Assembly (NCBI RefSeq): GCF_000344685.1
Contig: NW_006920414.1
Coordinates: 1,989,577-2,053,576 of the forward strand
DNA length: 64,000 bases
Direction of reading: 5' to 3'
From: Gloeophyllum trabeum ATCC 11539
Taxonomy: Eukaryota > Basidiomycota > Agaricomycetes > Gloeophyllales > Gloeophyllaceae
This document shows positions 22,680 through 46,889 of the stretch, one piece after another (positions within the stretch are counted from its first letter, which is position 1; every line of letters starts with the position of its first letter). A program made the translations under genes and the position numbers. The notes beneath the pieces are model-generated. The model saw only the letters and a list, made by a program, of their open reading frames with translations. It did not search any database and was not told the origin of the DNA.

Positions 22680-24941
22680 ATGAGTCGGACACCCGATCGC
22701 GAGGACGACGACAAGAATGTCGCGGGGGAAGATCCAGCGCTCCAGCCACTCCTCCCAGCCACCGAGAATGACCATGATACCCATACTGCACATGCGTATG
22801 TTACCCAGTCCGGGTTTAAGAGGCTTTCAGCCACGGACAAGAAGACGTTATTATTGACGACTACCATGGACAAGATGGGCATGGGACGATACTCAGTCAG
22901 TCGAAATGGTCTTCACACACGGTCTATCCACTGGCGAGAATAATTGTGCTGATTTTTTTCTCTACAGTGGTACATCTTCTTCGTAAGCTTTACTGCAATG
23001 TCTACCACATCGTAGTCGGACTGAACAGGAATCCAGTTATGCGGCTACGGTTACGCCCTCGATTTAATGTGGGCGCAAGCCTTCGGCCTCATTGTCAGCT
23101 CCGCGCAGCAAGAGTTCGGCATCCCAGGTGACTATATGCGCACATCAGATTGTGAATACAGACCCGATAGCTTGGCATAGATTCACAGTTTGGTACTCTT
23201 CTAACTGCCTTCAACGTTGGCCTCACCATAGGCGCCTTTACATGGGGAATCATTGGAGATATGGTATGAGTGCTACGCAATCTGCGCCTATAATCTCCAG
23301 ATATTTTATTTACGTGTCCGTGGTCGACCACTAGTTCGGGCGGAAATGGGCATTCAACCTGACAGTCCTCATTACCGGATTTTGGGGTATGCTACTTGGC
23401 TCTGCCCCCAGCTGGCCCTGGCTCTGCTTCCTTTCTGTCTTCACTGGTTTTGGGATCGGAGGCAACATACCGACGGACGCTAGCATTGTTCACGAGTTTC
23501 TGCCACACGTTCGTACCTGCTCATTCTCTTGTCCATATTTCCAACTCAACCTGAACGTCTATAGGACAGCAAATACCTCCTCGCAGCTCTATCGCTCTTC
23601 CAACCTCTTGGCGTAGTTGTATGCTCCGTCATCGCTTGGGGGTTCATCCCATCCAATAGTTGCGAGACCGGGCTAAGGTCCTGCTATATCGCTGATCCCG
23701 GGGAACAGTGCTGTGCGAGGGAGGACAATGTAGGCTGGAGGTTCACTACGTGAGCTATTCGGAATCGCTATGCACGAAGGCGTACGCTCATTTGAGTCGT
23801 TAGAAACGCGATCGGTGCTATCACATTGTTCTGTTTCTTCCTCAGATTCGTCGTGTTCAATTTTCAGGTTGGAATAAACCACACTGGAGCTCCTCACAAG
23901 AATAGCTGATTATCATTTCCTTGCGTAGGAGAGCCCGAAGTTCCTGCTACTCCAGGGTCGCGAGCAGGAAGCCGTCGATGTCATCCAGCACATAGCCAAG
24001 GTGAATCGGAAGCCGTGCTCGCTGACTGTCGAAGATATCTACGCTCTGGATGGTGATGATATATCGGAATCTTCTTCTACAAGGTCTGGCGAGCCGAAGA
24101 CTCTGGGAGAGATGGCCAGCCAGTTCAAAGTGTTCTTCTCGACGCCCTATATGGCACGACTGTCACTTGCGATATGGGCTACGTTCATTTTTGATTATGC
24201 CGCATTTTCCATTGGTGAGTGTCCGCGTCCTACGGCCACCCACAGTGGCTCACTCTTCCGCAGCCGGTGGATTCCTACCGGATATCCTTAGGAGGAAGGG
24301 CGTGGCTGCTGGCCAGTCAGTAGACATCACATATCGAAACTAGTGAGCAATCCCCTCTTGGTTTCTGGGGCTGGAGAGTATCATTGACGGGGCCATAGTA
24401 TAATCATATACGCTCCAGGCATCGTCGGTGTCGTGCTCGGGGCGTTTGTGATACAGACCAAGATGCTTGGCAAGACATGGTCAATGACGATTTCTGCTAG
24501 CCTGATGGCCGCTTCGTTGTTCGCTTTCGTATACATTGTGAGTGACAGACCTGACCGCTGTGGATCTTAGTGAGGTCTTGCTAAACTAAATCAGGATTCC
24601 CCGGCGGCTAATGTGGGCTTCAACGCCATGGAGTATTTTTTCCAATCCATGTGAGTGCCCAGCATGCTAATTCGTTTTGGAATATTAAACTGACCTGCAC
24701 GAGGTTTAACGCCATTCTGTATGGCTACACACCGGAAGCGTTCCCGGCTGCGGTGCGCGGTTCCGCTTGCGGCATCGCTAGTACCTGGGGTAGACTTTCA
24801 TCTATCGTTGCACCGCTGGTGGCAACCCGGCTACTTGCGACCAGTGTGGACGGCGTTCTATACCTTGCTGGTGGTGCAGCAGTCCTGTCCGCTATCGTGA
24901 CCCTTTTCTTGCCGGAGAAGCTCAAGAATGAAGGCTTTTGA
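22680..24941 (+). CDS. MFS transporter
   Basis: A multi-exon gene with about ten short introns. The cytosolic N-terminus has PALQPLLPATEND. The transporter core shows LCGYGYALDLMWAQAFGL, DSQFGTLLTAFNVGL, the loop 2-3 motif after GIIGDMFGRKWAFN, and GFGIGGNIPTDASI. The C-terminal half has YGYTPEAFPAAVRG and GIASTWGRLSSI. This pattern fits the sugar-porter/SV2-like branch of major facilitator proteins with 12 membrane helices, driven by a proton gradient at the plasma membrane or an organelle. The substrate cannot be read. An exon around 23640-23760 is uncertain. The gene points toward the mycosporine genes, 1 kb from the aldo/keto reductase, so an export role for that pathway is conceivable but unsupported. 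Confidence 0.82.
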
Positions 24942-25994: not shown

Positions 25995-27157
25995 ATGGCC
26001 TTAACGCTGCAATCAATGATCGAAATTGCGCCTGGCGTAGATATGCCTCGGCTGGGGTTCGGTGTCTACGCGTCTGCGAAGTCTATCTGCAAGAGAAGCG
26101 TGACATGTGCCCTGCATGCCGGCTACAGGTGAGCACGACACCAGTTACGGACTCCCTTGTTAGTACTCACGCAGACCCTTCGCCCCTCCCAGGCACATCG
26201 ATTCCGCGATGTACTATGAAAACGAGAAGGAAGTCGGGTTAGCGATTCAAGCTTCGGTTATACCACGCCACGACGTTTTCGTGACGACGAAGATATTGGC
26301 GCCACCACCTGATGATCCTACCGGTGGAAAGCTTTGGGCAATGCTGAACGAAGCTGTAGACCGCTTCGGTCTAGGTTAGTCAATGAACTTATTGCCCCAT
26401 GCTCGCCCTGTACTGAGACAAGCGATCGCCAGATTATGTGGACCTGTTCCTCATCCATACGCCGACAAGTGGCCCAGAAGGACGAATCAAACTGTGGAAA
26501 GCGCTGGAGAAGTTGAAGCAGAGTGGCAGGGCGAGAAGCATCGGCGTATCTAATTTGTGGGTAATCCGTCTGCGCTTAGCTGGTCCCTTCACCTACTTTC
26601 TTGTAGCGGTATCAACCACCTCCAAGAGCTTGCAGCATCGTCATCGACGAGGCCTGCTGTCAATCAGATTGAGGTGCGAAGCGGTCGCCACGAATTGCAT
26701 ACCTCTACTCACCTCCGCTAAGTTGCATCCCTGGTGTCAGCAGAGAGATATAGTCAATTATTGCCAGAATCATGGAATCACAGTCCAGGTAAGTTCCCAG
26801 CCCATTGTGGGGACTCAACTAAGCGGTATGCAGGCATATTGTCCGCTTGTCCGAGGACAAAAGTTCGAAGATCCTACGCTTAATCAGCTGGTGTATGTGC
26901 ACCTCAAAGACCCCGCACAAATTCTTCTTCGATGGAGTCTGCAAAAAGGGTAAGCACGAGATTCGAGCTCATTGAGCATGGTAATCAAATATAAGCGTAG
27001 ATTCGTTCCGCTACCAAAATCGGATACACCATCTCGGATAGAGGCAAACGCGGCCTTGTATGACTTCGAGCTATCGGCCGAGCAGATGGCTTTACTGGAC
27101 AGTCTGGACCGGGGAGCAAAAGGCGCCATAGATATCAACCCGGTCAACTGTCCATAG
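25995..27157 (+). CDS. Aldo/keto reductase, next to the mycosporine genes
   Basis: A multi-exon gene (first exons 25995-26128, 26193-26374 and from 26433). The AKR fold is clear: MPRLGFGVYAS opens the barrel. The catalytic tetrad is visible as Asp and Tyr in HIDSAMYYENEKEVG, Lys in VFVTTKI and His in DLFLIHTPT. SIGVSNFGINHLQEL, LHPWCQQRDIVNYC, DPAQILLRWSLQKG and the NADP-binding FVPLPKSDTPSRI follow in family order. The loop before DPAQ is shorter than usual. It reduces aldehydes or ketones with NADPH. Its stop lies 84 bp from the stop of the convergent NRPS-like reductase. That neighbourhood makes it a candidate to reduce an aldehyde released by that enzyme; this is inference. Confidence 0.85.
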
Positions 27158-27241: not shown

Positions 27242-30200
27242 CTAGGTGGACCAAGCAGGAGGCAAGAAACCTGTCTCCCTCCAAGACGCCACGAATTTGC
27301 CAACGAGGGTGGAAGAGATAGCCGGTGGCTCTTTCATGGACTTCGATATTGTGGCAATGACCGAGGTGTCGTAGCGGACATCCATAATGTTTTTCTCTTT
27401 ACTGGTGTACTGTTACGCTTTATAGCCAAAATGTATATTAGGGCATATGAGTTATGACCACTCACGTTTGCATGCCACAACGGCAATAAGGCACCTGTGG
27501 GACTATCCGGCTTTGACGATAGAGCGCAGTCTAACCGTTCGAGCCATCGATCCGGGGGTACAGTCTTGAATTCCAAACCCATAGAGGAAAGATAGGACAA
27601 AATGTCCTCCCACGACGTCGCTGTATTCGGATTCACAACGTGATAGACTGGGATAACGCTCGTGGCTTGTATAGAATCAGAGCCGTCGATAATATCCATG
27701 ATAGCCCGGGCAGCGATATCAATGGGTAACCAGGAGGGCCGCTGGATGCATTAAGTTTAGAGTGAATGTGAAGGGGCGGCCGGAAGTGCACACCTCTTGT
27801 AGAGCTGGAAGACAGCCAGTATACTTGACGCTGGCGATCAGAAGAGGCCAGGCCTCTGTTTCATTCCATACGCCATTTCGAGTATCGCCACATAGCTGGC
27901 CAACCCTAGCTATACTGATCCGTCCCTTGAGGGGGCCGGCATACGCACGAGCGCAAATGTGCTCGGCGACCCACTTGGAGCGAGAATATCCGAGGGGTGA
28001 GGGACTGGAGTCGGATTTGGGCAGGGATTCCGGTATAGCGGAGGATTCGTTTACTACAGCAGCGGTCGAAGAGCAGAAGATCATCGATGCTCTCCGTGGA
28101 CTAGCGATACAGAGGTCGATTAAATTCCGAGTGCCTGGACAAAGCATACGTTGAGGTTCTTCGACAAACATCAGACTGCTCGTGTTTACCTGCCAAATGA
28201 ATGGCGGCGAATGATTCAAGGCCCGCAACGAAATTGACATCCCAGGCAGCCTGAGGCAAAATTAGGCAAGGGTATCCTCCAGTAGCGGTCGTTAACGTAC
28301 GTGAATTATCCAGGTTACAAGATCAGCGATCATGCGATACTCGTCCCGTTTCAGGCCCAGACAAGGATCACCCAGTTGTATCGCAAAACATTTGACTTTC
28401 GCCCATACTGATCCGGTGTCGAAACCGCTAAAGCCTCTGGTCTTCAAGCTCTGGACGACACGGGTTTCAGCTTCAGCGTCGTCCCGAGCCCTGACCAAAA
28501 CTATGACTTCAGAATCACATTCGTGCAAGATCCTAGCTAAGATATGGGCACCAAGTGCACCAGTGGCGCCAGTGAGTACCTATTGTCTGCGTCAGTGCTG
28601 CACGGTGCATTCAAAACAAGTTACATACTACAGCGTGCCCTTGGGAACAGTCAGTTGGACCACCTGGCTCAGACGCTTGATCTGTGGTGAATGTGCCATA
28701 CTTGGCTACCAGCTCATGCATCAATAATGAGGCATTTGCAGTAGTCCCTGCGGAACGCCCGGATCGCCCGGACCGCACGTCCTCCATCAATTTCACTAGC
28801 CTATAGCGTGCCACAGTCAGTGTCTCAAGATAGCGAGAAAAATCATCAAACCGACCTATTTACAGTAGAATACTCGTAAACCACGTTCAAAGGTATCGGG
28901 TCATCGACTAGCTGAACTCGAAAATCCTGTTGGTTACAGGCGGGCGACTGCACACCGTACCACGCACCTTCTGTAATTTACTGCGCAACGCCATGGCCTT
29001 GACGGAGGTTATACCTAGGGCGAATAAATCCTCATCGTTGTCCCATTCGCCGATGCTGCCAGAAAGAGCAGATTGCACGCAATGTCGCACATAAGAAACT
29101 AGGGCCTCCCCGTGTAAAGCTTGTAAATACGTGTAGGAGCCGCCGCCCGAGTTGAACGTCCGATACGCCAGCTCTATCACGTCCGCATACTGTGCATACG
29201 CCAGAGGACGAAGAAGGGTCCCTTTGCTAGCCTTCGGGATAGTTGAGCCAGACGGAAGTATGACAACCATTTCGTCGACGATGTGGGAATATGACGGTCC
29301 CCTCTGGTTCAGCGTATGAACAATGTCCAAAATGGATTCCCTGGCGGCATCCCCGTCGGCGGGCAAAATGAGAACACCAAGCAGTGGTCGTGAGGCACCG
29401 AAGACGAGCGCCTCGGAAATAGCAGGTGATGCCCTAAGACTGTTCTCAATAATACTCGCAGAAGTCTTCTTGCCGTTCGTCTAGAGCGGAGTTAGGCAGC
29501 ATACGTATAGCTGACCAAAGGGACCAACCAGGACTATAATATCGTCTGCTCTGCCTGCGTACTTCCATGTATGAGGCTTTACAGGATGTTTGGCGTATAG
29601 ATCAGCAGTAGCAAAGCTACCGTCAGGTAGATTAGATACGTTCTGGTCGTGGAGGGATGAGAACAGGCAGCATATAAATAAAACATGAGGCAACATACCA
29701 ATGTCGGGAATTCTTTGTCCACTATTAGCTCGTAGGTCCCTGTGTCCCCGGAAGGTACAAATCGAAGCAGATCTAGAGAATGACTGTAATCTCGCAGCCA
29801 GCTCCATTCTTTATCAGTGGTGTAGTCCCTTGCCGAGCTCATCAAGACTGCGGTTAAGGTAAGCCATAAACTGTTCTACTGACAAGGATAGTCACGATTA
29901 CCTACATCCACATTCGCTGGAGCCAAGACGGCTCACGAGCTTTATCCCGCGGGTCACCATGTAGTCGCCCGTTTCGTCCGGGAGGGGAGCACCGCCAGTG
30001 CTGACGAGACGCATGCGCTGAAGCATGCACATCCCTGCATCCGACTCAGAGAGCATTTTCAGGATGTAAGGCACAGAGAGGAATGCCCGAACGTCCCGGC
30101 AGGACGAGAGCGCCTCTACGACGTTAGTTGCGTTGATGGGATACAAAGAGGAGTACAGATATAAGGGAGTACGAGACATCATGGAGCGAAGGAAATCAGG

Positions 30201-31245
30201 CATCCCGCCCTGAACAGGTAAATCAGCGCGTGAAGCCTTACGACTACCGTGCATATACTCACATGATATAACGGTGTCGTGGTGAACGCCGCGAGTCCGG
30301 GAAGACAAGGCAGTCCTTGCGTCCATACTCGATGAGTCTGGTATATGGGCTACACGACAAAGATGAGTTGTACTATTGACCAGACTCGAAACGTCAGAAT
30401 CGTACTTTGGGCATACCGGTGGATCCACTGGTATGGAAGACAAAAGCGATGGTGTCTTTCTCTTCGTAGGGACTCAAGACGGGATTTGGCAAGGCCACAT
30501 CGGTACATGTCCAGATCGACCTCGATGGCATAGGTACAATCTTTACGTCTTCTTGAATACTTTGCTGATCGACGTCACGGTTTGCCATAGCATTGCACCC
30601 TTCCTGAATGAGAGTAGGGTGGCATATGAGATGTGTAGATTCAGTCGTGCGACAAAGGTGGCGTATCGCATCTGGACTATTCTGTGGACTATAAGCGGAG
30701 GATGTCAGTAAAGAAGGACTTAAACATTCGTTGCATCTCCAGTTCTGTAATGTCTGCCTACTCACGCTATTAGTAGAACTCCATAGCCAAGTCTCAGGGC
30801 TGCAAAGACGACCACCAAGAAATCCGCACAGCTTGGCGAAAACAAAGCGATTATCCTACTCTGTCGCCCATCTGCCGCCTGTCGAGCATGTAGAGTGCCC
30901 CCACGAAAGTAGTGCGAAGCCACCGCATTCGAAGCCTCGAGTAAGGAAGCGAAAGCTGTAAAGAGTCCGAAGGTAAGCGCCTTCCGGTCCACTGTGATGA
31001 CATGCGAACTATTACTCACTGAACGACACCACCCTCCACTGCCTCTCGGTTTTGCCCTGGCTACTTTCGAGGATATGCGAAGGCTGGTAGAGCTCCGGAA
31101 AGCCTGCTATCAGCGTATCTGGATCGCTCTTCCCTCCTTCCTGGAGGACCTGATTCAAGGATACGAATCCATGGGGATCTTCATCAACTAACTGTTTGGC
31201 CTGACCACCGGTGCAGGTGAGGTATGATTCCTGTAAGGATATCAT
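27242..31245 (-). CDS. NRPS-like enzyme: adenylation-thiolation-reductase
   Basis: A heavily intron-split gene of about 1,000 codons. Adenylation domain: GYGVLLIA, core motif FVFHTSGSTGMPK, then GLPCLPGLAAFTTTPLYH, RLGSSECG and KYAGRADDIIVLV. Carrier domain: DLFALGITSVKAM, with Ser as the phosphopantetheine site. Terminal reductase: NAD(P) motif VLTGATGALGAH, then FCSSTAAVV and YSRSKWVAEH, giving the Ser-Tyr-Lys triad of extended short-chain reductases. The C-terminus ends ETGFLPPAWST. No condensation or thioesterase domain is present. Such enzymes activate a carboxylic acid, bind it as a thioester and release it by reduction to an aldehyde or alcohol. It is divergent to the ATP-grasp gene over 397 bp. 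Start at 31243-31245 and the first intron joint are less certain. Confidence 0.88.
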
Positions 31246-31642
31246 GGTCTAGGATTCGATAAGCCATCGCCGACGAGTGCTTATATGTGTCTCTATGTAA
31301 TGGTTCCGGCAAGAACCTATCCTTTCTAGAGGCGATGACGCTGAGCATACTCGAGCACCCCTCGTAAAGGGAATGAGTGAACCTTAGGTCCTTTCTCGTT
31401 CTGAATTGCTCTCGTTGACTCCGAGTTTAGTGCTGCTCTGCCGTTATGGAGGTGCCTCATGGTGTTAACTCTGATATCTGCGAATCCTATGGTACGGCCC
31501 CGAACCTCATGGACCGGGAGGACCGAAATCAGGGTCTTTCTGAACCCTTACTTATACCGTATTTGCCCCGTACGCTGAACGCTCCCATCTTCACGTCCTT
31601 TTTATGCACAGAGGCGACCCGAGGAGTCCGTCCGTCGCCTCG
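31246..31642. promoter_or_regulatory. Divergent promoter of the NRPS-like and ATP-grasp genes
   Basis: The two start codons face away from each other across 397 bp, so the genes likely share regulatory input. One CCCCT word (yeast-type stress element core) is at 31358-31362. I see no repeated motif that would name a regulator. Confidence 0.45.
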
Positions 31643-33381
31643 ATGAATGCGCCGCAGTGTCAGAAGATTAGCAACCCTACACGCCGGCAGACAGTTATCA
31701 CATCGCTTCTGCTCATAGTTCTCTCCCTCCTCACCGCACCGGCTACTTCGATCGTTGTCCTGTTTTTCCTAATTCATTCTCAGCTGAAAGGAACAGCTCT
31801 TCATCTGCAGAAATGCCGGGTAGGCCGTAAGACGGTCTTGGTCACGGGCGGGCGTACGAACAAGTGTCTCGTGCTTCTTCGCGCATTCAAGCGCGAAGGT
31901 TACCGTGTTCTCGTGGCGGAAGAGGGTTCTTGGGGTGCAATAGCTTGCACTAGGTTTTCCCGAGCAACAGACGGATATTACGCGCTTCCTGAGCCAAGTA
32001 ATGAGACCGACCGCCTCGCCTACAAAAGGGCGATCGCAGATATTGTGGCTCGCGAACGCGTAGACGTCTGGGTCCCTTGTTCCAGCATATTTGCCACAGT
32101 GGAGGACGCGGAAGCTGCCCTGGAGATTTCCTCCGCCGCTCACCATCATTGCGATACGTTCATACAACATCCTGACTTGGTCGACAGTCTGCATTGGAAG
32201 GATCGCTTCATGCGTCTTTGCTTGGAGCTAGACTTTCAGGTACCAGAGAGCCAGCTCATCACGTCTTCTGCAGAGGGCGTCGAGTTTCTCTTCTCCGCGG
32301 CGACTCGCAAGAAGGGTTACTCTTATATCCTTAAATGCGTCGAACTAGACGATGCTGGTCGGAGCGACCTGACGCTGTTGCCGTTGGAGACTAAGGAGGC
32401 GACCATTGCGCACTTCGCGAGGATGCCTGTACCACCCAGCGACAAGATCCCCTTTGTATTGCAGCGTTTCATCCGTGGACCCGAGTACTGCACTCATGGA
32501 GTTGTCAGGAACGGACAACTGCGCGCATTCGTTGCCTCCAGAAGCAGTGATATGGTATTGCGATACCTCGACCTCGAGTCATACGCCAAGTCCATCACCG
32601 CTCTTCCTAGACCCTTCATAATGGATGGTCTCAAAGATGCAGCCCTCGACCGCGCGACCACAGGAATTCGTCGCGAGCGCGAAGTAGGCAAGCAAGCGGA
32701 GCATTGGACAGTCCAGTTTTTGGAGCGCTGGTCAAAGCTCCTGCGTGAGCAGGGCAAGACCGGCAAACAAGCCGAATTGACAGGTCACTTCAGCTTCGAC
32801 TTCCTGCTTGAAGAGTCGGAAGGGCAACTCTACCCGATAGAGTGTAATCCGGTACGTGGCTGCACTCTTTGGAACGTAGCGCCCGATATTTATGCAAACG
32901 TTGCTACATATAGCGTACTCATACTGCTGTAGCACTGCTCTCGGAGACTCCCCGTCTCGCGTCCGCTTATGTGGAAAATGAGGGCCTTGATGCTGGTCCC
33001 GTGCGCCCGGCAGATGGTGTTCCACGTTCATGGCTTTCCCATTCGCTTCCCTTGTCCATAGCTAACGTCATCCCGGATTCAATCGCGTCAATGGTGTTTC
33101 CCATCATCCATCCTCGCCTTCGACGGTCAGTTGCTACGTCCGCTAACCGAGCGGACCCGGTCCACGCCACATCATCGCCTTTCCCCGGAGATGGACCGTT
33201 AACTATGGTTTCCCGTCATATTGCAGGTTTAGAGAAGGACGTTTCATTCGATGCTTCTGATCCATTACCCTTCTTTATCCTTGCCCACGTCCAGATTCCT
33301 TGGATTATTGTGAGGCTGTTATGGAAGGGGAAAGGGTGGAGTCGGATCAATACGAGTACGGCGAGGGTGTATGAATGTTAG
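31643..33381 (+). CDS. mysC: ATP-grasp ligase, MysC type (mycosporine synthesis)
   Basis: Two exons, 31643-32851 and 32914-33381, encode about 558 residues. The 62-nt intron is fixed by frame and rebuilds IECNPRTHTA, the metal-binding ExNPR motif of ATP-grasp ligases. Other MysC-like stretches are KTVLVTGGRTNKCLVL, YRVLVAEEGSWG, VDVWVPCSSIFATVEDAE and FVLQRFIRGPEYCTHGV. In cyanobacteria MysC joins glycine to 4-deoxygadusol to give mycosporine-glycine using ATP; the amino acid used here is unknown. Before the catalytic part a hydrophobic segment TSLLLIVLSLLTAPAT then VVLFFLI suggests a membrane anchor. The symbol is borrowed from cyanobacteria. An in-frame upstream ATG at 31604 would add 13 residues. 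Confidence 0.87.
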
Positions 33382-33735
33382 ATGGGTTTGTTATCGGCTT
33401 TGTTGGACTCCTCGTATTGTATCGTCTTGGCCTTCTTGCTTGCAAGTGCCCGCCGTCCAAGTTGCTCTTTTTCGGGTCTTCCCTTCGCACCGTTGCAAGT
33501 CTCATGTTCGACTATTGCGCCGCAGACGCATCTTGTGTCTGTGTGGTCTTACACGCACCTGGGTATGGCGTATTCTGGCAATGGCGAAGTGCTGAAGTGA
33601 CACCGTAGGGTTTCTCAAAGAGGCGCATATGCCATTCGCAAGCAACACTCTTCCAGTCTCATACACAAGACGTTTCAAATCACTGTACATTTCGCAAACT
33701 CGCGTAACAAGAACCCTGTAATGGAGTCTACGGCA
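33382..33735. other. Intergenic, between convergent genes
   Basis: Shared 3' flank of the ATP-grasp and cyclase genes. Overlapping short frames in all plus-strand phases, no domain. Confidence 0.4.
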
Positions 33736-35710
33736 TCAGGCATCGACGGCAATGATCTCCACGACGGCGTGGCCGTTGACACCCGCCTCGTTCGCTTTGG
33801 TGCTCGATAGGACGTTCTTCTTCTCTGCGGCAATTGCTGCCTTGGGAGTACTAGTATCTTTGGCTGCCACAACGTTTGCTCGCTTGCACAAGACCTCGGG
33901 GTCCATACCAAGGTCTCCAATGTCGCAGAGCGCCTATGAGGGGACAGATGAGCCTCGAACTTCACGTCAAGCGAGTTTTGGAAACCATACATCACGACCA
34001 TGTCCTCCTCCGTACTTCTGCTTAACGAGTTCCTTGTGGATCTTCAATGCCTTGAAGAGCTCGTCGTAGGAGGCGTCGTTGATGAAGATGCAAGTGCCGT
34101 ACGGGTTCGGAATTGCGAACCTTTGCTTGTTGTCGCGGGTTTTCCTAGAGCCCAAACCGAGTCCGCGGTGAGGAGGTCTGAGTCGAAGAATGCGCAAGCA
34201 TCGGACGTACAAGATGGCCTTAGTCCCGCTGATGATCATCTCCTCGGTAAACAGCTCGTGATCCATGGACAAGCCCACGGAATGGGAGAGCACATGGTAT
34301 TCGTCTCTCTCGCTTTCGCTGAGCAAGCCACGGTACCAAGCAAAGGTCCTTGATTGGAAACTCACGTCATCGACCGTTTCCCAGAGGTGAGGCTATTGAA
34401 CTACTCACACAAAGAACGCCATATCGATATTGATCTACCGCCGCATCCACATGCGTCAATCATGGAAACCGTTATCTTCCGTTGAATTACTCACAGCATG
34501 CCCATGACGAAGAGGTACGACGGGGGCAAGTTCCAAAGTCGGGGAAAGAGTGTGGCCGAAGGCAATGACCCTAAATAGCGGGGCGTCAGTCGTGATGATG
34601 ACGAATCACTTAGATATCACCTATCCAGGCCCAACTCATGGAGGTTCGGTGACTCTAGCTGCAGAGTGAAGACGGTTAGAAAGATGGCCTACGAAAGGTG
34701 GGTAATACTTACGTCGAGCATGACCTTGATTCCCCTCCAGCATATTTCGTCGGCGATTACTTTCATAGCAGGGTCGGAACCTTCAAGACGGCCAAATCGA
34801 GTCTCGATCAAAGCAGGACCGTTCTGAACCAGGAGTTCCCAAATCCTCTTGTCGGCGCAGGACGAGATCTTCATTAACTCTATCGTATGCATGCGGTCAG
34901 CGCCTCGGCTCCGGGGCATTAGCCTGCGAAGTCAAGATAGGCTCACCAGCGAAGCCATTCCGGACCTGGCCCTCCGGGAGCGTCTTCAGCAGATTAAAAT
35001 CTAGGAAGGTAATCAAGGGCGCGTGGTAGGCCCCGAGACCTGAAGAGATGGGACACCGCCACTCAGGACCGGATCAGCAGTAAGAATCGAGAGAGAGCGT
35101 ACGGTTCTTGAGATTACCGTGGTTGACAGCAACTGTCATCTCCGGCTATCAGGACCATACGGCAGACAAGTCCGATGAACAGAATACCTTTAATGCTGAC
35201 GCTTGCATCAATCAGCCCGATGAGCGTAGTCGGCACGCGGATGAAGTTGGAGTTACGTCTGTAAGAAGCACAGGCGTATCCGGCGACGTCGGTGCATAAT
35301 CCACCTCCGACGACCAAGACTGGCTCCTTGCGGACGAGCCCAAATGCGTCCATAGCATCGACTATAGAGAGCATCGTTGCCATGGTCTTGTTCTTCTCGC
35401 CACCCGACATCACGAAGGTGGTAAGGGGAATGCCATGATGCTCGAAGTAAGCTGACCACTGCGCAGAGTAAAGATGGTTGACATTCTCGTCGGTGACAAG
35501 GAGAACTCTCTTCCAGTCCGCGTATATCTTCGCAAGGTGATTGTGTTTGAGATCGAAAATGTTGTCGACAAATTGGAAAGCTGACGCGACTCTAGCTCAG
35601 TCTCTCAAACAACGCAATGTCTGAGAATACTCACAGTACTTGATTTCTTCATTGCCAGTGACGGCAAAACCGTTCTCGGTAGTGTTGACGGTGGCTTTCA
35701 GGTCACTCAT
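33736..35710 (-). CDS. mysA: Desmethyl-4-deoxygadusol synthase-type sugar-phosphate cyclase
   Basis: Eleven exons sum to exactly 462 residues: 35710-35635, 35580-35188, 35132-35103, 35039-34947, 34879-34713, 34658-34621, 34570-34495, 34434-34409, 34348-34211, 34144-33991 and 33933-33736. The fold is that of 3-dehydroquinate synthase. NAD is bound by [19 protein letters not shown]; zinc ligands are Glu in GFAELMK, His in [11 protein letters not shown] and His in [48 protein letters not shown] and [11 protein letters not shown] are hallmarks of the desmethyl-4-deoxygadusol/valiolone synthase branch, not of the AROM enzyme. It cyclises sedoheptulose 7-phosphate to the mycosporine core. Neighbours decide for the deoxygadusol branch. 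The symbol is borrowed from cyanobacteria. Exons of 26, 30 and 38 nt are unusually small. Confidence 0.92.
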
Positions 35711-36890
35711 TGTGGATAGCTAGTCAGGTGCGTACAAGACTACTGAATCAGAACGATCGTTCGGAAGGACGGGATGCACGATAACGGCGGTCGGTGGACG
35801 GGTCCAGTATGAGGTCCACTGACAAACAAGTCTGCTTTATGAACAAACAGTGGACCATCGTGGAAAACGCCGGCTATGTTGGAAGAGGATGTTGAATTAA
35901 CAGCAGTTACAGCAAGGAGCACTCATGACCAGCCTAACCAAGCAAAGCGTCAACGCGATGTATGCAGGTGTGACCATGGAGATCAAACCAGCCGCCTGAG
36001 ACAGATATTCGCCGGCGGATTCTCAAGAGTATCAGAAACAGTGGATGAGCAATAATTCCATCGAGATTCGTGGAAGTCGCGCAGAGCAAATTGGTGGCCA
36101 GTATTTCCTTCACCATGTCGAACGGGAGATCCTTCGGATGTACGGATAGCGAAAGACGTATGCGAAAGACCCACAACCAGAGAGATGCCGTAGCATTTGA
36201 AATATCCTCGTATCGAATTAACACTGATGGTGATTGTGAATCCTAGACAGAGCACAAAGGCAACGACCGAGACGATTGAAAGTGGAATCGGGCGTCCATA
36301 GAAAGATGGTGCGGATCCTGGAGCAAACGAACATGTAAAGGGTACATATACTTCGGGCTGGGAAGTGTTGCGGATGATCGACACGAGACTAGGGCTCTGC
36401 AGCATGTGCCTTCATGTGTGGAGACATCAACGCAAGAGCGGCATACTTCCGAGAAAGTCTTCCGTGGTAGAACGCCACACTCTCGGACCATCCTGCCGGA
36501 AGCAACACTTCGCCGTAGCACTTGGGTATCGAGGTGCTAAACCAGAATCTTGAATGTGCAGGTCGAGAGAGGGATGACGCACAGCAAGGGTAGTCGCCGA
36601 CAGGCGTGTTGGAAGCGTAGTCCTGAAGTGCAAGATGAAACGGTTATGATACAATAATGGATAGGGATGCCCACATATGTCTCTAACGCTCTTCATACGA
36701 GTTTTGTAGGGAACGAAACTAGTCATAGGCACCCTGAAAAGGGTTACGCGTTTCCATCGCGTTCATGAAATGTCCTCGCGGAATCCACGTCCTGGTATCG
36801 ACTGCTGTTATAGTTCCCTAGCCGGGCCAGCTCTTGAGGTCTGCACCCACCCAACCTTGAAGTTTTGAGGAGCATCCTTCAGGAAGCACG
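35711..36890. other. Divergent region between cyclase and O-methyltransferase
   Basis: The cyclase and methyltransferase starts are divergent across 1.2 kb. On the minus strand, frames at 36427-36732, 35983-36405 and 35934-36224 are longer than expected and one has a hydrophobic stretch (PLSIVSVVAFVLCLGF). I could not splice them into a coherent protein, so a degraded or unrecognised membrane-protein gene is possible. Confidence 0.3.
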
Positions 36891-37901
36891 ATGCTCAGCG
36901 CTGAGAAGGTTCCAGAGGGCTTCGTCCAAGCTCACGACACACCCCTGGGTCGCCTTGCATACGTTATCAATGACTTGCAGGCCAACATATCTTCGTCAGA
37001 CTCTTCGCTCTCTCCCGCGGCGCGCTCCTTGATCGACGAAGCTACTCGCATCGTCAATGGCTTGGACCCATACCTAACGTGCATGACTTCACCGCACCCG
37101 CCCATCCTAGACAAGATGATTAAAGCTGGCAATGAGACTGACTGGAAGCAGTTGCATAAACAGGGAAAGACAATATACGAATTAATACCCGAGATGACGG
37201 CCGGATCGTATGAGGCCGTGGTGCTCCAGCAGCTGGCAAAGACCGCAAAGGCGAGTGCCGTTGTTTCCCAACGTTGCTACACTCATACGGACTTGCTCCG
37301 AAAGGCAAAAAACATCCTGGAGATAGGCATGTTCACCGGGACGACCACCGTCGCCTTGGCTCTGTTACCCTCGGTCACCAAAGTTGTTACGCTCGAACTA
37401 GAGGGCTTCCTGGCAGACTTCAGTATTCCGTACTTCGCGGAAGCTGGTGTCGCGGAGAAAATAGAGGTCAAGATTGGCGATGCCCGTGAATCCCTGGATA
37501 AGTTGGCAGCTGAAGGTGTCTCGTTCGATATGGTAAGTTCTGGCAGGACTAATACAGATACGATACGAGACTGACCTTCAGCCGGTATCCAAAGGTCTTC
37601 ATTGACGCCGATAAAGCCGGCTATTCTACTTACCTCCGCAAGGTGCTTGACCATAATCTTCTCGCAGCGGAGGGAGTTATTGTGGTCGATAATACGGCAT
37701 ACAAGGGTACACCTTGGGCGCCCGACCCGTCCTATCACCTTGGCGCCGCAATACACGCTTTCAATCAAGACGTTAGGTCGGTCTAGCGGCCTAGTGCTGT
37801 AAACTGCGAATACTGACAATTCCCAGGAACGATCCCACAGTCGAAGTCGTCATGCTCCCTATCAGGGACGGCATAAGCTTAATCCGAAGAAAGGAGGAAT
37901 A
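36891..37901 (+). CDS. mysB: O-methyltransferase, MysB type (4-deoxygadusol synthesis)
   Basis: Exons are 36891-37532 (probably interrupted, see below), 37595-37776 and 37826-37901. The protein has LDPYLTCMTSPHPPILDKM, YELIPEMTAGSYEAV, the SAM motif LEIGMFTGTTTVALALLP, DMVFIDADKAGYSTYLRK and VIVVDNTAYKGTPWAPD, typical of MysB-like class I methyltransferases. The enzyme methylates desmethyl-4-deoxygadusol to 4-deoxygadusol. Within the first exon, 37251-37304 starts GCGAGT after AAAG and ends AAAG. Its removal gives LAKTAKAKNILEIG, which reads better than the 18 inserted residues, so I infer a 54-nt GC-AG intron. Without splicing it would be a harmless in-frame insertion. The symbol is borrowed from cyanobacteria. 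Confidence 0.9.
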
Positions 37902-39204
37902 GGCTCTGACATGTAAACGTGTGGCATACATACCGTAGCTTAGCTGCTCCGAGGTACCAGCACAGAGTTCGGGAAATAATTGGAGACTTCTTGCGTGATT
38001 AGGAATGGTCCAAAAGTCAAACAGCAGGATGGCCATCAATCGAGCCAGACGTAAACTCTGTGACAGGCAATCGATAAGTTCTTCTAAACTACGGCTCGGT
38101 CCGCGTAGCAAAATGTCTTGTTTCGTTAGTCTGTCGCCGTGCAAGGGAGGGCCGAGTATTTGGATCAGCACCCGCTTCATTTCAGGCCGTGCAGATGTTG
38201 ATACCAGGTCTCCCGGCCATTGACGCTTCGAGTTCATATCCGAGGAGCATGGCAATCCACGGTCAACTAATGGTCAATGCACAACACATGAATCAGAACC
38301 GATGGCTACCTTGGTGGTACCGCTTGTCAATAACCGTGAATCCAGTAAACGTGCGTGATGGGAGCCATGGCGGAGATAAGCAGCAGAATCTGGAGACCAA
38401 GATGAGGATGGCCTTGACCACAAGACGGATGGGGTATCGAAGATCCCGGAGGTGTGAGTCGGAAGGGATACCTGAAGAGCACATAGACCCACGGAATTCC
38501 AGACCTGTCTATAGCTCCGAGTGTTCCGAACGCACAAAGGGGAGCGTATGAGACCTGAAGTGCTCTTCAGGGGGTTAAAGCGTCGACCGGTGTTCCAGCC
38601 CCCGAGCATAAACTAGCATCCGTACCAAAAAAGTAAGCCCCAGAGCACCAAGGACATCCCATCGGTGCCTGCACCGTCCGCTCTGCATCTTGGATGACCA
38701 TTGACTGTGCCACGTAGAAGGATGCATCCACCTCATATATGTCAGATTCGCTCGCAGGGATGGATTCTGCGGCAGAATCCATATGACCTGGATCCATCAA
38801 AAATTTCGCAGGAGCAGCACTTCATTCCCTCCGATCCTTGACTTGGAAGGCAGTGCATGTCCTCTCTGCGGTCACATTTCTCTGAGTACAAGTGGAAAGT
38901 CGCCGGGTGCGCGTTGGCTGAATATCAGGCAAGGAAATAAATGCCCCTAGCCTGAAGTCGCCAGTCATCACATTCTTCGTGGTATATCAGAGGTGCAATT
39001 TGAAGGTATGCCGGAGTCAATGCTGTCGACAAAGGAAGAAGTACAGCAATAACACTTTGGCCAGTGTGGCATGTGGCAAGCGCCGTGGAAAGACCCAAGA
39101 AAGACCGTCTTTTTTTGGACGCGACTACATGACGTACAGTCTTGAGTGTCGTGATCGTACACAACTTCGAGTCCCTGCTACCTTACACCGATCTGCGACG
39201 AGAG
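37902..39204. other. 1.3-kb intergenic region
   Basis: Frames on the minus strand (37791-38255, 38274-38609, 38567-38800) have no recognisable domain and no convincing splice joints. I see no supported gene. Confidence 0.35.
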
Positions 39205-41216
39205 ATGGCCTTACCCACTAGAGGCCGCGTTATTCTCGAGACTACGGTGGGAGAGATAGACATCGAGCTCTGGTCAAGAGTACGTGCACATATTCTCAAT
39301 GGAACGAACGTTCAACATTGATTCATCCTAGGAAGCACCGAAAGCATGTCGCAACTTTATAGCTTTGGCTATGGAAGGTAAGTATATTTTTCTCACTCGA
39401 CGGCGTGCGCTATCTCTTACCACGTGTAAAGGGTACTACGATGGTGTCATATTCCATAGGTACGAACCTTGCCATCTACGAGAGGACGCCACCAACAACC
39501 ATGTTACAGAGTCGTACCGGATTTCTTAGTCCAAACCGGAGATCGTACAGGGACAGGAGGTGGAGGGGAGTCATTCTATGGCGGTAAGCCCTGTTGGCTG
39601 GCTGCAGCTGTTGGCCTCCAATGATATGGTAGTCTCACTCAGAACCTTTCGAGGACGAGATCCACCCGCGCTTGAAGTTCGTGCACAGAGGTCTGGTGGG
39701 CTGCGCAAATAATGGCACTAAGAACTCGAATGATTCGCAATTCTTCATCACACTAAGTCAGTAAGTCCGGACTGTGCACTGGAGCGCAACCTGACACTAG
39801 TGGCAGGCCGCGCTGATGAGTTGAATGGGAAGCATACGCTGTGGGGCCGGTGTGTTGGCGATACTATCTTCAGTACGTTGAGATGCTCCTTCAGATGAGG
39901 GAGTCGCCGTAATTAACGTATCTTAGACGTTCTGAAGATTGGTGCTCTCGGTACGTTGCTGGTCGTTCTCCTCCAATCCCCTTCTTGACATGCTCCTCGG
40001 GCATAGAGCTTGACGAAAATGAGAAACCATTATAGTCCGTGCTTCACTCGAAGATTCACGTTTGTATCTAACGTCTGCGCTGCAGTCCCCCGAAGATCAA
40101 TCGTGTACGAATCGTGGACAATCCCTTCGATGACATTATCCCCCGAATAACTGCAGAAGAGAAACGTGCTCAGCAGCGTGCTCGCGAAGAAGCTCAGCGA
40201 GAGCGGGAGGAGCAACAGCGGCGAAAAGGGGCGAAAAAGTAGGAATCTCCTGCTCCTAGATGATGTGCTGATGCTAACTTCTTTGCCTGTGCAGGGATGT
40301 CAAGTTATTGAGCTTCGGCGCTGATGAAGATCAGGGAGAAGAAGAGCCCATGGTGGTCAAGAAGAAACCTATCGTTCGCCCCGACCGTGAGGCCTCTCCT
40401 TGCCTTATCTTATTCCTCTCTTGGCTGAACGAAGGTCCTAAGTGGTCGAAAATCCGGAATTACCTAATATAATCTCAGGAATAGTTCAGCCACCGAAGCC
40501 CAGCAGTTCAAAGGCCCAGGAATCAGTGGACAGATCGAAACAGGAACCAAAGCTCGAAAAGACGTCCAAAAAGGACGACGACGTCACAAAAATCCGAGAA
40601 AAGCATGAGAAGGAGAAAGCCGCCAAGGGGTATGCTGGATGATTGTACCTGTTGTCTACCGGAATTCTGATGAGTGTACAGCGATTCTCGACAGGCCGAG
40701 ATAGAGAGGATGGAGGCTGAGATCCGGAAATTGGCTCGGCGGCGTAATGGTGAAGAGGATAGCGACGAGGAGCGGGCTAAGAAGAAAGCGAAGAGCAAGT
40801 CGTACCTCGAGGAGGAGTTGTCCAAGTATGCCAAAGGGCGCGGTCTCCATAAGAAGAGTGACAAGAAGAAGGACGAGGGCGACGTCCTAGCTGCGCTAAA
40901 CAGCTTCCGCAGCAAGCTCAAGGGGACGGCTGCTGACAACGAGCCAGATGAAGCAGCCAATTCCAGAGAACATGACGCAGAAGGTGACAAGGAGAAGCCC
41001 ACAGAGGACGAGGGGATGGAGGTCGACAACGACTTCGGGTTCCTCGCGCACAAGCTTCACTTCCCGAAAGATAACTCGGAGGAGGTGAATAAGGCTGAAA
41101 GAGATTACGAAGTCATTGATCCGCGACAGCGAGGGGCGCGGGCGAAGGAGGAGGAGAGAGAAAAGCGGCGCGCGCAGAAAGCAAAAGGGGGCGGTGGAAG
41201 GAGCTATAGGAGATAG
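39205..41216 (+). CDS. CWC27: Cwc27, spliceosome-associated cyclophilin
   Basis: A multi-exon gene. The cyclophilin domain is spread over several short exons: GRVILETTVGEIDIELWS, EAPKACRNFIALAMEG, YYDGVIFHR, FLVQTGDRTGTGGGGESFYG, FEDEIHPRLKFVHRGLVG, NSNDSQFFITL and ADELNGKHTLWGR. Then come NVLKIGALELDENEKP and RIVDNPFDDIIPR, which are specific to Cwc27. A long charged tail follows (AEEKRAQQRAREEAQRERE and later LARRRNGEEDSDEERAKKK), ending in GGGGRSYRR. Members sit in activated spliceosomes; their isomerase activity is weak or absent. The start at 39205 gives an N-terminus a few residues shorter than usual, so a missing 5' exon is possible. Confidence 0.9.
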
Positions 41217-41825
41217 CGCGAGTATTGTGTCTTGCCATCTACATATTGCTGTCTGGAACCACTGCTCACTAGACGAGCCTACATTTAGTGCTCTTCTAAC
41301 TGTTCGGCTTGTCGGATTTTTGACCTGGTATACACTGGAGTTGCGTGGATCTGTTTCCCAGCCGGTCGCGAACGACATCGGTCACATACTAACTTATGGA
41401 TGCGATTTCCCGGAAGAAGGAGATAAGCTGAGCCAGAATTGGTGCTACCAGTTCAACTTCAAGGACAGCCGGGGCTACCGGTCTCATCTTGGATCCCGTA
41501 GAGCAGATCGCAGTTGATCAACACTAGAAGTGGCGCGCCAAATGTTGACGGCGACTTACTTAGAGGCCTATGTTCCTTGAGTTTGTCCGCGGTTGCTAGC
41601 AACAACAGGCATAAGTTAGGTACCTGGTTGCAGTCGGTAGCATCGTAACGCAGAGGATACTTGTAACTTTGAGTACTTGAGAGCAGGCACATCCCACAAT
41701 TGCAAGAGGCGCGTAGCAATCACGTGGTCAGCTCCTCTCGATCACGTTACGGCCGAGCCTCCAGCGGGACGGTCCCAGCACTCCGTCGCAGAGCGCCATT
41801 ACTGTACCCTTCACACTCCTCCACC
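41217..41825. other. Intergenic region
   Basis: 3' flank of CWC27 and promoter of UBC6. Short chance frames only. Confidence 0.4.
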
Positions 41826-44164: not shown

Positions 44165-44370
44165 TGTTCAGTTTGAGAAGCGATGCTGAACGGCTGCTGA
44201 AGAGCACTGTCACGCACATTGGGAAGCAATGTCACGCATCACGCGTACAGGCCTGCAAGTGGGGAGGCGCAATTCCGGGTCGCGCGGCGAGTTGTTTGCA
44301 TCTGTTTGGACTCTGCAAGAAAGTGGTCGCAAATCCCCCGCCTTCATAGAGCCTTCCGCATGTCGAAATC

Positions 44371-44933
44371 ACGCATATAAAATGTACCAGCAGGGATGTC
44401 ATGATACAGAAGATGCAACGTTGGTTTTGAATTTCTGATTTTCCCAATATCAAGTTCATTCGATAGAGGTAACGAGACCGCAAGTACATTTAACAAAAAT
44501 GTACAACCAACGTTGCATCCGCTCGTTGATATAGATTAACTTTTATGAATCAAGTGACGCGTGAATGTGAACGTAGCACGCTGTAGGTTTTCTGGCAGTA
44601 AAGAGCAATTAACGACGCGTCCGAACGCGTCGCGGACGTGACAAGCTGTGACACCATCGCAAAAAGTGTCACACCAAATATCCTGGTCACTGTCCGGGCT
44701 CTCCTGCCGCAGCAGAAGCAGGTCCCTTCCCCTATGTTAGAACTGTAAAATCAACATAGTACATGAGATATATATTCAGCCTTTTACAGCTGTGATCCAG
44801 TACTTGCTTTGTCCATTAAATTACACAGATTTGTGCTTCCTGGAAATCAAGCTCATCTATATCAAGGATAGGGAATACAACCACTGGTGTGCACATAGAT
44901 ATGTTCCAAGTGTTTCTAAAGACAATACATAAC
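44371..44933 (+). repeat. Direct repeat, copy 1 (ends exactly at N gap)
   Basis: This 563-bp block is repeated at 45329-45890 with a single A indel (TTAAATTACA here near 44817, TTAATTACA in the other copy). It runs precisely to the first N. The identity and the placement point to contig ends that overlap. Confidence 0.95.
44412..44519. repeat. 15-bp inverted repeat pair
   Basis: GATGCAACGTTGGTT at 44412-44426 is mirrored by its reverse complement AACCAACGTTGCATC at 44505-44519, enclosing about 78 bp. Next to the right arm, GTACATTT and AAATGTAC form a second inverted pair. The same structure is in copy 2 of the direct repeat. It could be a small non-autonomous element or a hairpin; no target-site duplication is obvious. 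Confidence 0.7.
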
Positions 44934-45328
44934 NNNNNNNNNNNNNNNNNNNNNNNNNNNNNNNNNNNNNNNNNNNNNNNNNNNNNNNNNNNNNNNNNNN
45001 NNNNNNNNNNNNNNNNNNNNNNNNNNNNNNNNNNNNNNNNNNNNNNNNNNNNNNNNNNNNNNNNNNNNNNNNNNNNNNNNNNNNNNNNNNNNNNNNNNNN
45101 NNNNNNNNNNNNNNNNNNNNNNNNNNNNNNNNNNNNNNNNNNNNNNNNNNNNNNNNNNNNNNNNNNNNNNNNNNNNNNNNNNNNNNNNNNNNNNNNNNNN
45201 NNNNNNNNNNNNNNNNNNNNNNNNNNNNNNNNNNNNNNNNNNNNNNNNNNNNNNNNNNNNNNNNNNNNNNNNNNNNNNNNNNNNNNNNNNNNNNNNNNNN
45301 NNNNNNNNNNNNNNNNNNNNNNNNNNNN
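44934..45328. other. Assembly gap (395 N)
   Basis: An unbroken run of N. Frames that cross it are meaningless. Confidence 1.
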
Positions 45329-45890
45329 ACGCATATAAAATGTACCAGCAGGGATGTCATGATACAGAAGATGCAACGTTGGTTTTGAATTTCTGATTTT
45401 CCCAATATCAAGTTCATTCGATAGAGGTAACGAGACCGCAAGTACATTTAACAAAAATGTACAACCAACGTTGCATCCGCTCGTTGATATAGATTAACTT
45501 TTATGAATCAAGTGACGCGTGAATGTGAACGTAGCACGCTGTAGGTTTTCTGGCAGTAAAGAGCAATTAACGACGCGTCCGAACGCGTCGCGGACGTGAC
45601 AAGCTGTGACACCATCGCAAAAAGTGTCACACCAAATATCCTGGTCACTGTCCGGGCTCTCCTGCCGCAGCAGAAGCAGGTCCCTTCCCCTATGTTAGAA
45701 CTGTAAAATCAACATAGTACATGAGATATATATTCAGCCTTTTACAGCTGTGATCCAGTACTTGCTTTGTCCATTAATTACACAGATTTGTGCTTCCTGG
45801 AAATCAAGCTCATCTATATCAAGGATAGGGAATACAACCACTGGTGTGCACATAGATATGTTCCAAGTGTTTCTAAAGACAATACATAAC
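45329..45890 (+). repeat. Direct repeat, copy 2 (starts exactly after N gap)
   Basis: Same sequence as 44371-44933, starting at the first base after the gap and continuing past 45890 into unique sequence. Confidence 0.95.
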
Positions 45891-46889
45891 TTCCCTAAGC
45901 ACTCCTTTGCCGACCTCGGTGAAATTGACCATCATTTCATCCCGATGGTGGTCAGCTCAGGAATAAGAAGAGACAGACATGTTTATGTCTACTACAGTCT
46001 GTAATGGTAGAATACCCTTCTTTCTGGTTTACAATAGTGATATACATTGCTGATGCATGCATAAGGTGAGAATGGAGCAGAGGAATGCACAAGAATACGA
46101 GGGGATACTTGCGACCACCTTTCAGCCACAATCTGCTGACAAATCAACTCGCACCGGAACCGGGCGTTGCGCCTCCCCACTGCAAGCATCAATCATCCTC
46201 ACTGCGTTCATGATATCGATGAGGCCGCCAGGTTCTCCGTCCCACCATTCTTGTTCGGCCTTGCGCCTCAAAGCGGCTCGTGCATACTGCATACCCTACG
46301 ATGCCACAAATACGCAGAGTCATGCGGTCCTGACTTGCAATTGGCACCGACGAGTTTCCATAACAGCTCAGAGAAGCGAGCTGTATAGGCGAACGTTGCA
46401 GAACGTCGCGTACTTCGGCGACTCTGCAAAGCTTATCCGTCTTCGCGTCGTATGGCCCATCTCGAAGAATTAGAGTCTGGATCACATGCTGGCTGGATTC
46501 CGTGCGTGTTACAGAGGATGACTAGTAGCTTCCACACCAGTCATTGAGCGGCGGGAGTGTCCCATGATCACTCGTCATCCGTCTGTTACGCTGGTGGTCG
46601 GCAAGGTCTTCGGCATGCTTGTAACTGCTATGTCCTATGGCGTGCGCAATAGCCCTTCTATGGGATGCCCGCACAGCTCGACCACCTGCTTCAAGGGTCA
46701 GCTCAGTTTCTTGGTGCTTCTGATTTCAACTGGGGTCGTCATCCCTGCTTCCCAGTGCTGCGTTTGATGCATGATGATCGTTGTTGGGAGATGGATGCGC
46801 AAGCACATGCGCTGGCATTAACTACGTTCATAAAAGCACTTGACCGTTCATCGAGCCTCTTGCGCTTTCGCACTCCAGCTGCTGTACGA

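Follow-up and report, generated by a model that had tools for sequence, protein, structure and literature searches.

The mycosporine-type gene cluster of Gloeophyllum trabeum and its fourth gene, a predicted adenylation-carrier-reductase enzyme

Fungal mycosporines, which are aminocyclohexenone sunscreens, are known for amino alcohols such as serinol and glutaminol as well as for amino acids, and a cluster of four genes in the brown-rot basidiomycete Gloeophyllum trabeum ATCC 11539 raises the question of which kind of product its fourth gene helps to make. The cluster lies in a stretch of 64,000 nucleotides of contig NW_006920414.1 (positions 1,989,577 to 2,053,576, forward strand), referred to as the window and numbered from its first letter; the source genome comprises 34 contigs and 35.5 Mb. 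A preliminary description, made from the sequence of the window, had read the four genes as the full cyanobacterial-type route and had compared them with the genes that make shinorine in Anabaena. What is known here is the three-gene core, and the interesting part is the fourth gene, which on its domain content is an adenylation-carrier-reductase gene and not a mysE gene. We put at about 0.55 the probability that the G. trabeum cluster is a mycosporine cluster with a reductive fourth enzyme that gives amino-alcohol mycosporines. The genes and spacers concerned are the following.

27242..31245, minus strand: the fourth gene, nonribosomal peptide synthetase (NRPS)-like, adenylation-carrier-reductase (A-T-R) type; 15 exons, 1077 amino acids, assembled by hand from splice sites
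31246..31642: shared upstream region of the divergent A-T-R and ATP-grasp genes, 397 bp, with a presumed promoter role
31643..33381, plus strand: ATP-grasp ligase gene, MysC-like; 2 exons, 558 amino acids, assembled by hand; predicted N-terminal helix at residues 14-49
33736..35710, minus strand: sugar-phosphate cyclase gene, desmethyl-4-deoxygadusol synthase (DDGS) type; 11 exons, 462 amino acids, from the gene finder
35711..36890: shared upstream region of the divergent cyclase and methyltransferase genes, 1180 bp
36891..37902, plus strand: O-methyltransferase (OMT) gene, MysB-like (Methyltransf_3); 3 exons, 299 amino acids, from the gene finder
25995..27157, plus strand: aldo-keto reductase gene adjoining the cluster; 7 exons, 281 amino acids, PF00248 at 159.3 bits

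The four cluster genes form two divergent pairs, with the 397 and 1180 bp spacers between their members, and the DDGS, OMT and ATP-grasp genes by which a fungal mycosporine cluster is recognized are adjacent at 31643-37902. Gene models were produced by a custom gene finder that used no homologous proteins and whose initial codon table was derived from nine open reading frames (ORFs) of the window, six of them from the cluster. This program shortened the ATP-grasp gene to a single exon of 429 amino acids and split the NRPS-like gene into two fragments, the two genes for which hand-assembled models are given above. Every model translates with a single, terminal stop. The GT..AG introns of the models are present by construction and do not count as independent support, which for the hand-assembled models comes instead from homology to other fungal proteins: the NRPS-like model is 63% identical to a Heliocybe sulcata protein over 1066 amino acids, its N-terminal region matching too, and the ATP-grasp model is 72% identical to a Heliocybe protein over 556 amino acids. 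The cyclase model is 72% identical to a Cristinia protein over 448 amino acids, and the methyltransferase model was checked against Pfam, the PDB and bacterial homologues only. Compared with the database entries for G. trabeum itself, the A-T-R model is identical at 875 of 875 aligned positions, the ATP-grasp model at 502 of 503 and the cyclase model at 399 of 404; these entries are differently spliced or truncated, and are shorter where Heliocybe backs the present models. Models and homologues together confirm the place and strands that the preliminary description had assigned to the four genes, and the gene finder returned a cyclase of the same size and exon number (462 residues, 11 exons) as had been proposed there.

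In the PDB the cyclase matches 5tpr with 424 bits and 4p53 with 227; the highest-scoring 3-dehydroquinate synthase (DHQS), 3zok, reaches 122, and the highest-scoring AROM protein, 6hqv, 105. The entry 5tpr is labelled as a 3-dehydroquinate synthase, and we take it to be the desmethyl-4-deoxygadusol synthase of Anabaena variabilis; 4p53 is labelled as a cyclase and is presumably the valiolone-type ValA. A tree of 33 tips, comprising the window protein, 16 of 120 listed homologues, 12 of 80 bacterial cyclases and four PDB stretches, separates 30 DDGS-type sequences, the window protein and 5tpr included, from ValA and two DHQS sequences with a split support of 0.997. The protein also misses the cut-off of the NCBIfam aroB equivalog (190.6 against 305). 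The cyclase is thus nearer to the DDGS (MysA) type than to the valiolone, AROM or DHQS enzymes, and an AROM or valiolone origin was ruled out by the PDB bit scores and the tree split. The preliminary description had named a cyclase in the AROM or valiolone clade as the finding that would speak against it; this did not occur, because the PDB scores and the tree set the cyclase with the DDGS type.

The other two core enzymes were compared with bacterial loci found by scanning prokaryotic genomes with an alignment of fungal cyclases. The best 80 loci, of at least 429 confirmed relatives, have cyclases at 50-55% identity and come mostly from cyanobacteria and actinobacteria. Homologues were called by phmmer at E 1e-4 in loci of which some are cut by contig ends; on this basis the methyltransferase has homologues in 76 of the 80 loci, the ATP-grasp protein in 74, and cyclase, methyltransferase and ATP-grasp occur together in 72. 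The first-exon ORF of the methyltransferase matches Pfam PF01596 at 54.6 bits, so that a Methyltransf_3 domain adjoins a mysA homologue, as is characteristic of MysB. The ATP-grasp protein produced no Pfam match at E 1, no significant match in a PDB sequence search and no match in a PADLOC scan, and its best NCBIfam match, PRK06849, reached 202.7 bits, below the cut-off of 406. Its AlphaFold2 model has a predicted local distance difference test score of 89 and a predicted template modelling (TM) score of 0.91. The 50 rows shown by Foldseek for this model have E values of about 1e-11 to 1e-10 and moderate TM scores by query (0.34-0.42), and comprise biotin, acyl-CoA and pyruvate carboxylases, carbamoyl phosphate synthetases, phosphoribosylaminoimidazole carboxylase and an L-amino acid ligase, all of which we take to be ATP-grasp families. 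The predicted structure, together with the place of the gene beside mysA and mysB homologues, identifies the protein as a probable MysC. Judged by sequence, then, the core three genes match bacterial mysA-mysB-mysC, and the cyclase scores and tree and the bacterial three-gene homologues support the proposal of a mycosporine-type cluster in a basidiomycete.

This core is of an already known kind, because a functional cluster from Phaffia rhodozyma has been published. The three-gene fungal core was first reported from this yeast (PMC5103461), and its three-gene cluster was shown to make mycosporines (PMC10057719). The Phaffia MYC cluster (DDGS-OMT-ATPG) shares its three core enzymes with that of G. 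trabeum, and the cyclase and methyltransferase genes are divergent in both; the window cyclase is 54% identical to that of database entry P0215, labelled Phaffia brasiliana. The gene order differs, and in G. trabeum the ligase gene is paired divergently with an A-T-R gene. Fungal clusters are said, in the same source, to hold the three core genes without a further peptide-type gene (PMC10057719).

The fourth protein matches the Pfam families AMP-binding (93.9 bits), AMP-binding_C_3 (100.8), PP-binding (32.4) and NAD_binding_4 (132.0), all above their cut-offs, and NCBIfam Thioester-redct at 205.4 bits, slightly below the cut-off of 213.35. In an alignment of 66 A-T-R sequences the carrier serine, Ser610, is present in all 66, and the reductase residues Y866 and K870 in 65, the remaining sequence being gapped. 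An adenylation (A) domain, a carrier serine and a reductase of the short-chain dehydrogenase type with its Y..K pair are the features of fungal adenylate-forming reductases of this type, and all of them are seen here. The fourth gene is accordingly recognized, from its domains, as encoding an adenylation-carrier-NAD(P)-binding thioester reductase. An NRPS-like gene on the minus strand, as previously described, is indeed present; its C-terminal reductase domain had gone unmentioned.

It is this domain that separates the protein from MysE. An ORF with an A3 motif is found in 13 of the 80 bacterial loci, and in 9 of these 13 it bears the motifs of a carrier domain and of a thioesterase (GWSFGG), an adenylation-carrier-thioesterase (A-T-TE) arrangement, while a hidden Markov model (HMM) of the fungal reductase domain matched none of the 80 loci at E 0.01. 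The A4 motif reads FDVSVWE in eight of the nine bacterial A-T-TE proteins, the ninth having no match to the pattern, and PLYHGG, without the Asp of FDVSVWE, in the A-T-R of the window. A blastp comparison of the A-T-R with one bacterial A-T-TE protein gave short, weak pieces only, the best of 35 amino acids. The bacterial mysA-mysB-mysC(-mysE) clusters of cyanobacteria and actinobacteria therefore have a cyclase, a methyltransferase and an ATP-grasp ligase homologous to those of G. trabeum, whereas their A-T proteins terminate with thioesterase motifs (in 9 of the 80 loci), mostly with FDVSVWE, and the G. trabeum enzyme has neither. A MysE would be an A-T-thioesterase with the A4 Asp; the fourth protein has a reductase, no thioesterase and PLYHGG, and its identity with MysE, and with it a shinorine assignment, was ruled out by domain architecture and motifs. 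The "full cyanobacterial-type route" does not hold for the fourth enzyme, and since the fourth gene is not mysE the comparison with shinorine fails too.

The best PDB matches of the reductase domain are 8aep (120 bits) and 4u7w, MxaA (116 bits), the latter presumably an enzyme of amino-alcohol release. The former is a domain of the Neurospora carboxylic acid reductase (CAR), and both this domain and the whole enzyme are described in an excerpt as able to reduce aldehydes to alcohols (PMC10168641). The genome of G. trabeum contains other A-T-R-like genes, as 26 exon-level matches to PF23562 indicate, and no close paralogue of the A-T-R gene was seen in it. One further gene of A-T-R type in the same genome (G000:C13:44929-48557) is 42-45% identical in its reductase part.

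Whether the A-T-R belongs to the pathway was judged by the association of its gene with the cyclase gene in other fungi. The association was followed in 120 listed matches to each of the two proteins, of totals of 494 and 3420, which depend on the gene models deposited; all counts of presence, absence and linkage below hold among these listed matches. Linkage was compared for 32, 32 and 7 named entries from the A-T-R, cyclase and ATP-grasp listings, and was judged by equal-sized contigs and by locus tags, not by the DNA of the other fungi. The A-T-R and cyclase genes lie on equal-sized contigs in 16 of the 21 species found in both sets, and in nine of the ten basidiomycetes: Gloeophyllum itself, Phlebia, Phanerochaete carnosa, Trametopsis, Mixia, Kockovaella, two Kwoniella and Cryptotrichosporon. 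The exception, Hermanssonia, has the two genes on short contigs of 44.8 and 11.2 kb. Four of the same-contig species have locus tags of positional appearance, and in each of them the tags of the A-T-R and cyclase genes differ by two: Phlebia brevispora (g2610/g2612, followed directly by the ATP-grasp gene at g2613), Kwoniella shandongensis (104455/104457), Kwoniella sp. B9012 (000705/000707) and Cryptotrichosporon argae (005422/005424). Heliocybe has its A-T-R and ATP-grasp genes on equal-sized contigs.

The A-T-R proteins of these species are also related. In a tree of 66 tips, built from 65 of the 120 listed proteins and the window protein, all ten basidiomycetes fall inside one basidiomycete clade of 30 tips with a support of 0.972; this clade contains the window protein twice, five metagenome proteins and species outside the linkage comparison (Ustilaginomycetes, other Kwoniella). 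Four A-domain positions, chosen after inspection of the alignment, are invariant in the clade (L306, S332, L357 and S360); of the 36 sequences outside it, 0, 3, 0 and 0 share them.

In Ascomycota the two genes lie on equal-sized contigs in 7 of 10 species. This pairing was not counted as clustering, because the genes are far apart in the two species that could be judged by positional-looking tags: about 25 genes in Neocucurbitaria and 263 in Parastagonospora, if tags rise by ten. The amoeba Planoprotostelium has its A-T-R and cyclase genes on different contigs. A separate observation concerns Aureobasidium melanogenum, in which two entries (P0333, P0336) combine an ATP-grasp match and PF01596 in one model, as either fused genes or merged models.

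For the substrate of the A-T-R, the order of the steps, the product and the role of the aldo-keto reductase, we infer the following route. By homology to the Phaffia and bacterial enzymes, the cyclase would make desmethyl-4-deoxygadusol from sedoheptulose 7-phosphate, and the methyltransferase would convert it to 4-deoxygadusol; the ATP-grasp ligase, again by homology, would couple an amino acid to 4-deoxygadusol, giving a mycosporine-amino acid. The A-T-R would adenylate the free carboxyl of this mycosporine-amino acid, load it as a thioester on its carrier domain, and release it reductively, hydride transfer from NAD(P)H yielding either the aldehyde or the alcohol. The adjoining aldo-keto reductase may finish the conversion of aldehyde to alcohol, and the end product would be an amino-alcohol mycosporine of the serinol or glutaminol type. 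In amino-acid-activating domains the A4 Asp binds the free alpha-amino group, and its absence from the A-T-R would fit an N-substituted substrate, in which that group is no longer free. Fungal mycosporines are reported in acid and alcohol pairs, namely serine/serinol, glutamine/glutaminol and glutamate/glutamicol (excerpt of PMC4665425). The wider proposal, of a reductive branch throughout Basidiomycota in which the A-T-R is dedicated to mycosporine-amino acids and takes their carboxyl to an alcohol, with the aldo-keto reductase as a partner in Gloeophyllum, is advanced tentatively, at somewhat less than even odds.

A number of points weigh against a reductive fourth enzyme of this kind. The A4 Asp is absent from all 66 aligned A-T-R proteins (one gapped), hence its absence is not substrate-specific, and it carries small weight because it is common to all of them. 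The invariant clade positions can arise from shared descent alone. Thirteen of 18 named agaricomycetes with a cyclase have no A-T-R row (Irpex lacteus, Abortiporus, Peniophora, Cristinia, Panus, Meripilus, Antrodiella, Hohenbuehelia, Steccherinum, Stereum, Exidia, Pterulicium and Auricularia), and, conversely, five of 10 named agaricomycetes with an A-T-R of the clade have no cyclase row (Heliocybe, which has the ATP-grasp gene, Neolentinus, Irpex rosettiformis, Phanerochaete sordida and Pleurotus ostreatoroseus). Gene models may be broken, but the present data do not establish a universal pairing of A-T-R and cyclase. Stereum hirsutum, without an A-T-R row, is presumably a source of mycosporine-serinol too. 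Mycosporine-serine is reported from the same species (excerpt of PMC4665425). Three Phaffia genes, without an A-T-R, reportedly gave mycosporine-glutaminol in Saccharomyces cerevisiae, retention time and absorption spectrum having served to identify the compound (excerpt of PMC10057719). A search of open-access literature brought up no report of mycosporines in Gloeophyllum, and the single paper in which both words occur is on endoperoxides.

The same product could also be reached in another order, the A-T-R reducing free serine, glutamine or glutamate first and the ligase then joining the resulting amino alcohol with 4-deoxygadusol. This order is favoured by the existence of A-T-R enzymes of the Lys2 type, whose substrates for reduction are free amino acids, and by the Phaffia ligase, which is stated to incorporate glutaminol (excerpt of PMC10057719). 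Since the A4 motif of the window protein lacks an Asp to bind a free alpha-amino group, a lack common to all the A-T-R proteins aligned, and mycosporine-amino acids themselves are reported from fungi (excerpt of PMC4665425), reduction of the amino acid first is considered unlikely, if the most credible of the alternatives.

Release could instead stop short of the amino alcohol, leaving as end product a reactive mycosporine aldehyde, a cyclized imine or a cell-wall-bound derivative. Carboxylic acid reductases are indeed described as made for aldehyde release (excerpt of PMC10168641), but the aldo-keto reductase that adjoins the cluster and the amino-alcohol chemistry of fungi (PMC4665425) argue for an alcohol, and such an end is improbable. 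A little more improbable still is a three-gene mycosporine cluster beside which the A-T-R gene is a bystander with another function. Three genes suffice in Phaffia (PMC10057719); in Peniophora sp. CONT and Hohenbuehelia the cyclase and ligase genes lie on equal-sized contigs, with no A-T-R row among the matches listed; and the 13 agaricomycetes named above and the many other PF23562 loci of the genome point in the same direction. Against a bystander stand the locus-tag linkage in Phlebia and three yeasts (the two Kwoniella and Cryptotrichosporon), the equal-sized contigs in nine of ten basidiomycetes, Mixia among them, and the conserved A-domain positions specific to the clade. Least probable of all is a cyanobacterial-type route in which the NRPS-like enzyme attaches one more amino acid, the product being an imino-mycosporine like shinorine with its absorption near 334 nm: the same three core genes with an adjoining A-domain protein do recur in the 9 of 80 bacterial loci with an A-T-TE, but the terminal reductase, the reductase HMM result, the missing FDVS motif and the 35-residue best alignment all speak against it, as do a review contrasting marine imine mycosporine-like amino acids with fungal metabolites (excerpt of PMC3083659) and the statement that fungi make only aminocyclohexenones (excerpt of PMC10057719).

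The preferred reading, a reductive fourth enzyme, can be set against other known systems. Fungal carboxylic acid reductases such as the Neurospora CAR (8aep) have an A-T-R architecture like that of the G. trabeum enzyme, and nine adenylate-forming reductases are predicted in Phlebia radiata (excerpt of PMC6540522); unlike other fungal CARs, the G. trabeum A-T-R sits in a basidiomycete clade linked to mycosporine genes, and its substrate is presumed to be a mycosporine-amino acid. Clusters of the ascomycete family Hypoxylaceae also include an NRPS-like gene and are assigned to mycosporine-like compounds (excerpt of PMC8403587), whereas the present cluster is that of a basidiomycete. Among the matches listed in the open-access literature, no A-T-R enzyme is named in a fungal mycosporine pathway, nor is one named in the excerpts of PMC7826186, PMC11433233 and PMC12204325, and no enzyme is named among those matches for the amino-alcohol ends of fungal mycosporines.

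The aldo-keto reductase gene lies tail-to-tail with the A-T-R gene, with 84 bp between them, and the best PDB matches of its product are YvgN, prostaglandin F synthase and 2,5-diketogluconate reductase; from its position only, it is a possible fifth member of the cluster. A major-facilitator transporter model at 22680-24941 (plus strand; MFS_1 and Sugar_tr) adjoins it in turn, and may be an exporter or unrelated. Elsewhere in the window, an AT-rich stretch at 44258-46181 lies between 40-nucleotide inverted repeats (80% complementary), and direct repeats of 300 and 115 nucleotides (100%, about 958 bp apart) flank a run of 395 N bases (44934-45328) in it; the stretch is perhaps a small transposable element or a doubled assembly edge. 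The remaining features are listed below.

7359-11760, minus strand: Dna2 replication helicase/nuclease model, PF08696 at 204 bits
22229-22314, minus strand: tRNA-Val, anticodon AAC, 86 bases
39578-41299, plus strand: cyclophilin-type isomerase, partial model
47022-49324, plus strand: GH76 glycosidase
61472-63605, minus strand: major-facilitator (MFS) transporter, with MFS_1 and TRI12 Pfam matches

The A-T-R is a pathway-linked candidate in several basidiomycete lineages, and with it the origin of the amino alcohols becomes testable. If the proposed reductive route is true, the enzyme for serinol- and glutaminol-type mycosporines would be identified, and fungal clusters would be of two forms, an "acid" one with three genes and an "alcohol" one with four. 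The A-T-R would also offer a part for producing amino-alcohol sunscreens in yeast.

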